Source: Nocardioides sp. GY 10113 (GTDB taxonomy: Bacteria > Actinomycetota > Actinomycetes > Propionibacteriales > Nocardioidaceae). From it: a stretch of DNA of 64,000 nt. A model generated the notes under the pieces. The model made no database searches, was not told where the DNA came from, and worked only from the letters and a program-made list of their open reading frames with translations. The number at the start of each line of letters is the position of its first letter. The first letter of the stretch is position 1. The position numbers were made by a program, and so were the translations under genes. The stretch is from assembly GCF_004919105.1 (NCBI RefSeq), contig NZ_STGK01000006.1:124001-188000 (forward strand). Reading direction: 5' to 3'. Shown one piece after another: positions 58,739-59,919 of this stretch.

Positions 58739-58820
58739 GCCGGAGTGGTGGAACAGGCAGACACGCAGGTTTTAGGTACCTGTGCTCTAGGGCGTGCGGG
58801 TTCGAATCCCGCCTTCGGCA
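58739..58820 (+). tRNA. tRNA-Leu (anticodon TAG)
   Basis: 82 nt with a long variable arm. Acceptor GCCGGAG pairs with CTTCGGC, anticodon loop TTTAGGT with TAG, and T-arm GGTTCGAATCC; discriminator A. CCA is not encoded. No clear promoter of its own; it may be read from bcp. Confidence 0.94.
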
Positions 58821-58836: not shown

Positions 58837-59466
58837 TCAGCGCAGCAGCGCCGCCGCCTGCGGGGCGATCTCGCGCAGCGCCTTCCCGCGGTGGGAGATC
58901 GCGTCCTTGTCCTCCCGGGACAGCTCCGCGGTGGTCAGGCCGGGCCGGTCGTCGGCGACGAAGAGCACGTCGTAGCCGAACCCCCCGGCGCCGCGGACCT
59001 CACGGATCACCGAGCCGTCCATCCGGCCCTCGACGACCAGCTCGCGGCCGTCGGGCAGCACCAGCGCCACCGCGCACGTGAAGTGGGCGCCGCGCCGCTC
59101 GTCCGGCACGTCGGAGAGCTGGGCCAGCAGCAGCTCGTTGTTGCGCTGGTCGGACTTCGGCGGCCCGCTCCAGCGTGCCGAGAGCACGCCCGGCATCCCG
59201 TTCAGCGCGTCGACGCAGAGACCCGAGTCGTCGGCGATCGTGGCGATCCCGGTGGCGGCCACCCCGGCGCGGGCCTTGAGCAGCGCGTTGCCGGCGAAGG
59301 TCGGCTCGTCCTCGACCGGCTCGTCGAACGTCGCGACGTCGTCCAACCCGAGCACCTCGACCTCCGCCAGGTGCTCGAGGAGGATGCGGTGCATCTCCTC
59401 GAGCTTCTTGGCGTTGCGGGTGGCGACCAGGACCCGGGGGGTTTCGAGGCTCGCTTCGCTTCGCAC
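58837..59466 (-). CDS. rdgB: XTP/dITP pyrophosphatase (non-canonical purine NTPase)
   Basis: A 209-residue Ham1/RdgB enzyme that hydrolyses ITP, dITP and XTP to monophosphates, preventing their incorporation. Signatures: VLVATRNAKKLEEM at the start, ADDSGLCVDALNG, and GAGGFGYDVLFV..AELSREDKDAISHRGKAL. Same strand as rph, as usual. The natural start lies at GTG 59466 (or 59475), inside the first copy of a 34-bp tandem repeat; the protein N-terminus VRSEASLETPR is encoded partly by repeat sequence. Confidence 0.9.
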   Translation of the reverse strand: MRSEASLETPRVLVATRNAKKLEEMHRILLEHLAEVEVLGLDDVATFDEPVEDEPTFAGNALLKARAGVAATGIATIADDSGLCVDALNGMPGVLSARWSGPPKSDQRNNELLLAQLSDVPDERRGAHFTCAVALVLPDGRELVVEGRMDGSVIREVRGAGGFGYDVLFVADDRPGLTTAELSREDKDAISHRGKALREIAPQAAALLR

Positions 59467-59919
59467 CTCAACCACCGACCCGGCTCGCTTCGCTTCGCAC
59501 CTCAACCACCGACCCGGCTCGCTTCGCTTCGCACCTCAACCACCGACCCGGCTCGCTTCGCTTCGCACCTCAACCACCGACCCGGCTCGCTTCGCTTCGC
59601 ACCTCAACCACCGACCCGGCTCGCTTCGCTTCGCACCTCAACCACCGACCCGGCTCGCTTCGCTTCGCACCTCAACCACCGACCCGGCTCGCTTCGCTTC
59701 GCACCTCAACCACCGACCCGGCTCGCTTCGCTTCGCACCTCAACCACCGACCCGGCTCGCTTCGCTTCGCACCTCAACCACCGACCCGGCTCGCTTCGCT
59801 TCGCACCTCAACCACCGACCCGGCTCGCTTCGCTTCGCACCTCAACCACCGACCCGGCTCGCTTCGCTTCGCACCTCAACCACCGACCCGGCTCGCTTCG
59901 CTTCGCACCTCAACCACCG
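59448..59919. repeat. 34-bp tandem repeat, 14 copies
   Basis: Units start every 34 bp from 59448 to 59890; thirteen are complete and the last has 30 bp. By eye all copies are identical. The unit begins GGCTCGCTTCGCTTCG, continues CACCTCAACCACCG and ends ACCC. There are no spacers between copies. The array fills the gap between rph and rdgB, and its first copy overlaps the rdgB start. The flank GGGTTTCGA before the first copy suggests it grew from a dispersed intergenic repeat. Confidence 0.93.

Follow-up and report, generated by a model that had tools for sequence, protein, structure and literature searches.

The closest described relatives of the repeat analysed here are the REP/BIME elements of E. 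coli, Pseudomonas and Stenotrophomonas with their RAYT transposases, imperfect palindromes of 20-40 bp that occur many times per genome, mostly between genes and often as inverted pairs. Further points of comparison are the IS200/IS605 elements, which have unlike ends and a Y1 HUH transposase, and the REP13E12 or DUF222-HNH repeats of mycobacteria, named as a repetitive category in PMC10589994. Known REP biology covers dispersal, tandem clusters that include flanking DNA (PMC3733652, PMC3116915) and the supply of stop codons by GTAG REP ends (PMC3733652). For one TnpAREP, a change from GTAG to GTGG is reported to have moved cutting to CC in vitro (PMC8266576). Coupling of bacterial genes by termination-reinitiation over overlaps or very short gaps has likewise been described (PMC6728339, PMC10666635). 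REP-like repeats are common in bacteria, in some cases without a RAYT to spread them.

The element that we describe from Nocardioides resembles REP/BIME in being a palindrome within the range of 20-40 bp, with many dispersed, mostly extragenic copies and inverted pairs. It differs in three respects. An associated RAYT (Y1) gene was not found in the genus: the Pfam family PF01797 was detected in 0 of 98 genomes (own genome included; one genome per species), with 5 of 14 control genomes positive, and a RAYT as the present mobiliser is therefore rejected. In its arrays, all units but the last copy lack the tail. Finally, the element provides both a stop and a start codon, here chained 13 times.

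The repeat array at the rph-rdgB junction

The window, i.e. the whole 64-kb stretch of DNA that was analysed, contains a tandem array between the genes rph and rdgB, delineated by Tandem Repeats Finder at 59448-59919 (period 34, 13.9 copies, 100% matches, 0 indels, score 944). The features of the locus, in window positions, are:

60636 to 59929, minus strand: rph (RNase PH), the upstream gene; Pfam PF01138 and PF03725
59931 to 59466, minus strand: predicted stop-restart chain, from the rph TGA (59931-59929) over GTG 59926 and 13 short frames to the last restart, the rdgB start at 59466; computed frames, putatively used by ribosomes
59918 to 59477, minus strand: tandem part, 13 units of 34 bp, each made of a 29-bp body GGTGGTTGAGGTGCGAAGCGAAGCGAGCC that lacks the 3' arm and of the linker GGGTC; all 13 identical
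59476 to 59440, minus strand: last copy, adjoining rdgB, read from the sequence as a complete 37-bp REP-like element with tail TCGAAACC; dispersed consensus plus one extra A in the body
59475 to 58837, minus strand: rdgB (Ham1 family); Pfam PF01725, E 9.2e-61

The core CACCTCAACCACC occurs exactly 14 times in the array and has no other exact occurrence in the window; allowing up to 2 mismatches, 21 matches were found in the window versus 1.42 expected (maximum of 5 in 100 shuffles). A preliminary description of this DNA had counted fourteen identical 34-bp repeats. Fourteen identical 29-bp bodies are indeed present on the minus strand, whereas the last of them, on the rdgB side, has a different end, being the complete element and the only copy to carry the tail. 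The same description took the identity of the copies as a sign of recent expansion, which fits recent local growth. The extra A in the body is common to the array units and their own last copy. The copy number of 14 is that of a draft assembly of 4,511,319 bases in 36 contigs. Differing spacers, as in a CRISPR array, are not seen in any of the 13 units, and the identical linkers rule out such an array. A structured RNA is rejected as well, since the whole array folds as RNA no better than its shuffles and corresponds to no Rfam family. No promoter- or terminator-like site was found at the array.

The closest named matches of rdgB come from Nocardioides and Pimelobacter. Two in-frame GTG codons, at 59475 and 59466, are candidate starts, both within the last element, and there is no in-frame start codon between this element and the conserved codons. 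The sole match of an Rfam scan near the array was a tRNA; a tRNA gene (RF00005) lies just past the rdgB end on the opposite strand (58739-58820, plus strand).

The rph-rdgB junctions of 81 loci (own and 80 named relatives) were compared, of which 79 were readable (all except L170 and L176). Counted from the last base of the rph stop codon, the first conserved codon of rdgB comes within 44 nt in 73 of the 79, which agrees with the earlier statement that the two genes are normally close; the remaining six distances were 49, 72, 76 and 120 nt, 273 nt at a junction that includes a run of N and, at the present locus, 504 nt. The 14-copy array is confined to this genome among the 79 junctions. One complete element is located exactly at the junction in 4 of the 78 others, namely in Pimelobacter simplex 3E (L103), N. 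daeguensis (L105), Nocardioides sp. Root240 (L106) and N. potassii (L157). In all four, rph ends GGT GGT TGA inside the element, and a GTG follows one base on, in frame with rdgB as judged by eye; the insertions in the first three may represent one event. The N. lianchengensis junction (L132) holds a different repeat, GGTGGTCGAGTAGTGAGCGCCAGCGAACG, which looks unrelated and occurs three times at 41-bp intervals, with a tail on the last copy as in the other arrays; here the stop TAG overlaps the start GTG (TAGTG). L146 carries a further element type. In several species a repeat has come to form the stop-start junction between these two neighbouring genes.

Reading frames through the array were computed with the closest ATG or GTG to each stop taken as the start. 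The first frame begins with a GTG 2 nt past the rph stop; 12 further short frames come after it, each with its TGA one base ahead of the next GTG; the 14th frame enters rdgB (209 codons). The extra A of the local body sets the last GTG in the rdgB frame, while with the 36-bp consensus, checked by hand, it would be one base off. Reinitiation of ribosomes along this chain is putative, being read from the frames, and no strong Shine-Dalgarno sequence of their own precedes the GTG starts. As every unit would restart translation, the outcome of the 13 successive stop-restart steps is expected to be independent of unit number, and phase variation of rdgB through copy number is not favoured because the rdgB frame does not hinge on the unit count. 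No published account of such a chained stop-start junction was found in the listed portions of the open-licence literature. The stop-free plus-strand reading through the array that had been pointed out earlier is real; it lies on the strand opposite to rph and rdgB and is a side effect.

A dispersed element family and the growth of its arrays

The repeat unit had also been likened to dispersed intergenic repeats, and in the genome it does belong to a dispersed, mostly intergenic family. The element, GGTGGTTGAGGTGCGAGCGNAGCGAGCCTCGAAACC, is an imperfect palindrome of 36-37 bp that comes in a short-loop and a long-loop (GCTGG...) form. The full-element pattern has 30 exact matches in the own genome versus 0 for the reversed pattern; a looser pattern has 67 exact matches and is present in 40 of the 98 genomes of the genus, own included (control 0). 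The own matches form 42 clusters, 34 of them between predicted genes (none between divergent genes), 6 inside predicted open reading frames and 2 unassigned, with gene predictions based on our own codon score. Both orientations occur within 22 of the 42 clusters; the rph-rdgB array has one orientation. This distribution is REP/BIME-like. Folded as RNA, the local copy reached z = -2.6 and a 39-nt consensus z = -3.9. With DNA parameters the hairpin was no better than shuffles (z = -0.3), and the hairpin is thus modest. The search for recurrent neighbour genes at own element loci returned 167 similar ORF pairs, and the 40 viewed appear to join frames across array regions. Single elements within predicted coding sequences, with possible in-frame extension, were observed at L021 (C35 of the own genome) and L023 (C29). 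Literature searches on Nocardioides with REP, palindromic or tandem repeats, and on RAYT with Actinobacteria, returned nothing on this family, and a search by the repeat letters gave no bacterial-repeat work among the matches listed, going by titles and the starts of abstracts.

The anatomy of the rph-rdgB array recurs elsewhere in the genome. Five arrays (L002 to L006) contain 11 to 18 copies and two (L007, L008) fewer, and in each of them the body is conserved, the short linker is specific to that array and just the final copy bears a tail; smaller arrays of 2 or 3 copies have the same anatomy. The tandem form, a truncated copy followed by linker and full element, has 18 own matches and was found in 27 of the 98 genomes (control 0). 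It is not a constant companion of the element, as G086 has 98 element and 0 tandem matches and G100 has 57 and 3. Within an array, body variants are common to the units and their own last copy, which argues for local growth; L005 combines two unit types in a repeating pattern. At two other loci, L013 (C34: 66500-72300) and L030 (C3: 101500-105900), the whole element plus spacer is repeated, with seven 60-bp units at the former and six 66-bp units at the latter. The rph-rdgB array is one among many recurrent, locally grown REP-like arrays. The preliminary interpretation is supported in part; the complete last copy, the anatomy recurring in genome and genus, and the stop and start codons contributed by the element were absent from it.

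The linker shares at least 5 bases with the upstream flank in 10 of 18 own arrays (shuffled mean 0.9, maximum 5). Six of these ten match only a degenerate first copy, and four (L009, L015, L019, L020) are clean; the linker of the rph-rdgB array shares only 1 base. In other genomes, some truncated copies differ in loop type from the full copy that follows them, so that simple tandem duplication is rejected as the sole source of truncated copies. Arrays appear to be seeded in more than one way and to be lengthened by slippage or unequal exchange.

Taken together, the array probably arose by insertion of a REP/BIME-like element at the rph-rdgB junction, followed by amplification in place and tolerated through a portable stop-start. 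The dispersed palindrome would have inserted at the stop/start junction, and its 5' part with a 5-bp linker would then have been multiplied locally, through slippage or unequal recombination. The complete copy would have stayed at the rdgB end, the gene's own start being lost. The TGA-G-GTG of the element may let ribosomes coming from rph terminate and reinitiate at each unit in turn, until translation of rdgB begins at the last GTG; this portable stop-start would be the reason why the insertion is tolerated. The reading builds on the presence of the array here and its absence from most relatives, its anatomy, the body variants within arrays and the reading frames, from which the mode of amplification, actual reinitiation and the reason for tolerance are extrapolated. 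The excess of linker-flank matches over shuffles in the own arrays also speaks for it, as do the single elements at the junction in four relatives. Counting against it are the single base shared between linker and flank, the loop-type mismatches elsewhere, the lack of a strong Shine-Dalgarno sequence and the draft-assembly copy number.

DUF222-HNH units as candidate mobilisers

The genus has many REP-like repeats and no Y1 transposase was found in it, and DUF222-HNH genes form a concrete candidate family for their spread. The array could be the solo left end of a DUF222-HNH mobile unit, whose HNH protein would act on the tandem GGTTGAG-type repeats at its own end, gene-less arrays being non-autonomous relics; we regard this as a tentative possibility. 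It would add a mobiliser to the insertion-and-amplification explanation and does not exclude it.

The clearest case is G098, a genome in one contig, with 7 unit copies of ~1.55 kb that are 88-94% identical and start in 2-5 tandem element copies. In each unit the tandem elements come first; they are followed by a DUF222 gene whose end is HNH-like, and the shared right-hand part contains the hairpin-like CCCCGCCCACCAGCGGGG. The left flanks differ, and four of the seven (L240, L241, L242, L246) have another common repeat, CGAGACGCCGCC, in the array or next to it. On the right side, the pairs L240/L241 and L242/L246 are alike beyond the unit edge, which makes the right end less certain. At L244, the same two-copy array occurs with 72 bp identical to the unit end and no further unit match in 4 kb, an observation in favour of a solo left end.

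Elements also lie beside or at the edges of DUF222 units in other genomes. G040 and G008 have inverted elements at DUF222 genes, with ~1 to 1.6 kb between them, and in G101 opposite-orientation repeats were present on two sides in 5 of 8 loci. G066 and G055 have no exact element match; at the corresponding place, several of their DUF222 copies carry tandem 22-bp GGTTGAG repeats, up to 11. The longest such run observed, at L253 (G066:C1:3422800-3426200), consists of eleven 22-bp repeats CCGGGTTGAGTCGGGCCTGCGT ahead of a DUF222-HNH gene, with fewer at other G066 copies. The multi-copy DUF222 genes of G086 have a single long-loop element. Across G066, G055 and G086, a loose same-orientation match was located no more than ~350 bases upstream of the gene, or, for L265, where its open frame starts, in 16 of 19 judged DUF222 copies, where about one would be expected from the density at rdgB loci (163 hits in 436,021 bases); copies within a genome are related, so that the 19 represent three families rather than independent cases. 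This count omits L256, which is cut by a contig end, as well as G047 and G085, for which orientation was not set. Between genomes, the DUF222 proteins compared have 27-69% identity, in some cases confined to short stretches.

Several observations speak against a solo left end. DUF222 is far more widespread than the element (97 versus 40 of 98 genomes). A generic match lies near only 4 of 30 top-scoring DUF222 loci, compared to 2 of 21 controls; for DUF222 loci from ten element-rich genomes, any match was found at 10 of 30 and a full copy at 5 of 30. None of 35 own element loci encodes DUF222 in the stretch of flank covered, and in the own genome the element sits inside DUF222 genes: its tail follows directly after LTSPR codons at L069 (end of C36) and L070 (start of C8), with a third likely case at L304 (start of C18). 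C36 and C8 break exactly at that tail, as if at an overlong array inside the DUF222 gene; contig ends were read for 27 of 36 starts, 13 ends and the C32 start, so that the list of DUF222 breaks is partial. Finally, two G098 pairs share their right flanks beyond the unit. The G098 DUF222 protein gave a Pfam HNH match below cut-off (16.2 versus 21.4 bits), only a weak sub-cut-off Cas9d match in NCBIfam, and weak PDB matches; Pfam still lists DUF222 as of unknown function.

At multi-copy DUF222-HNH units, an edge repeat is clear in G098, loose in 16 of 19 copies of G066, G055 and G086, and absent near most other sampled loci. On this sequence basis, DUF222-HNH is an unproven candidate mobiliser. 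More broadly, the DUF222-HNH genes of Nocardioides and relatives might represent a new kind of autonomous mobile unit, with a left end formed by a copy-number-variable tandem array of GGTTGAG type on which the HNH protein acts; dispersed elements and the rph-rdgB array would be solo ends that survive at tight junctions by means of the portable stop-start. We consider this rather doubtful, slightly more so in view of the right flanks shared beyond the unit. Such units would share with REP13E12 the multi-copy DUF222-HNH gene; the tandem palindromic left ends, in contrast, are a feature seen in Nocardioides relatives, the only group compared. Like IS200/IS605, the G098 units have unlike ends, with the modest-hairpin element on the left and the hairpin-like sequence on the right; unlike IS200/IS605, their gene is a DUF222-HNH gene and not a Y1 HUH transposase. 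No published account of tandem left ends at DUF222-HNH units was found in the listed portions of the open-licence literature.

Less likely readings: a miscounted array, a lost transposase or regulatory sites

The copy number might be an assembly artefact, the array itself being real and its true length shorter or longer. The draft state of the genome, in 36 contigs, is consistent with this, as is the fact that C36 and C8 stop where the element begins inside a DUF222 gene. On the other hand, several arrays of differing unit length and number were assembled, each with its own linker, and tandem copies also exist in the complete one-contig genome G098. We regard such an artefact as unlikely.

It is about as improbable that the element is an ordinary REP which owed its spread to a RAYT (Y1) transposase, since lost from the lineage. 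Such an origin would suit its size, its location between genes, the inverted pairs and the GTGG foot directly preceded by CC; the GTAG to GTGG change that reportedly shifted the cutting of one TnpAREP to CC in vitro (PMC8266576) would suit it as well. However, PF01797 is missing from all 98 genomes, and yet element numbers vary widely between species, as expected if the element were still moving.

That the array was selected because its units bind a protein or regulate rph-rdgB is very improbable: the regular spacing and identity of the units would fit, but the array occurs at only 1 of 79 junctions, arrays of the same anatomy exist at other loci, and neither a promoter- or terminator-like site nor an Rfam family nor folding beyond shuffles was detected.

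Repeats were observed at rdgB in other forms as well. At the N. albus junction (L160), several copies of a 12-bp repeat, GAGCCCAAGAAC, lengthen the rdgB start, with fewer copies in N. luteus (L173). In two genomes, G010 (L055/L057) and G012 (L054/L056), rdgB was matched as two pieces (residues 1-94 and 94-198); the gap in G010 corresponds to an in-frame insert with CTTCGAGACG...CTCAGGGACC, which looks like another palindromic repeat.
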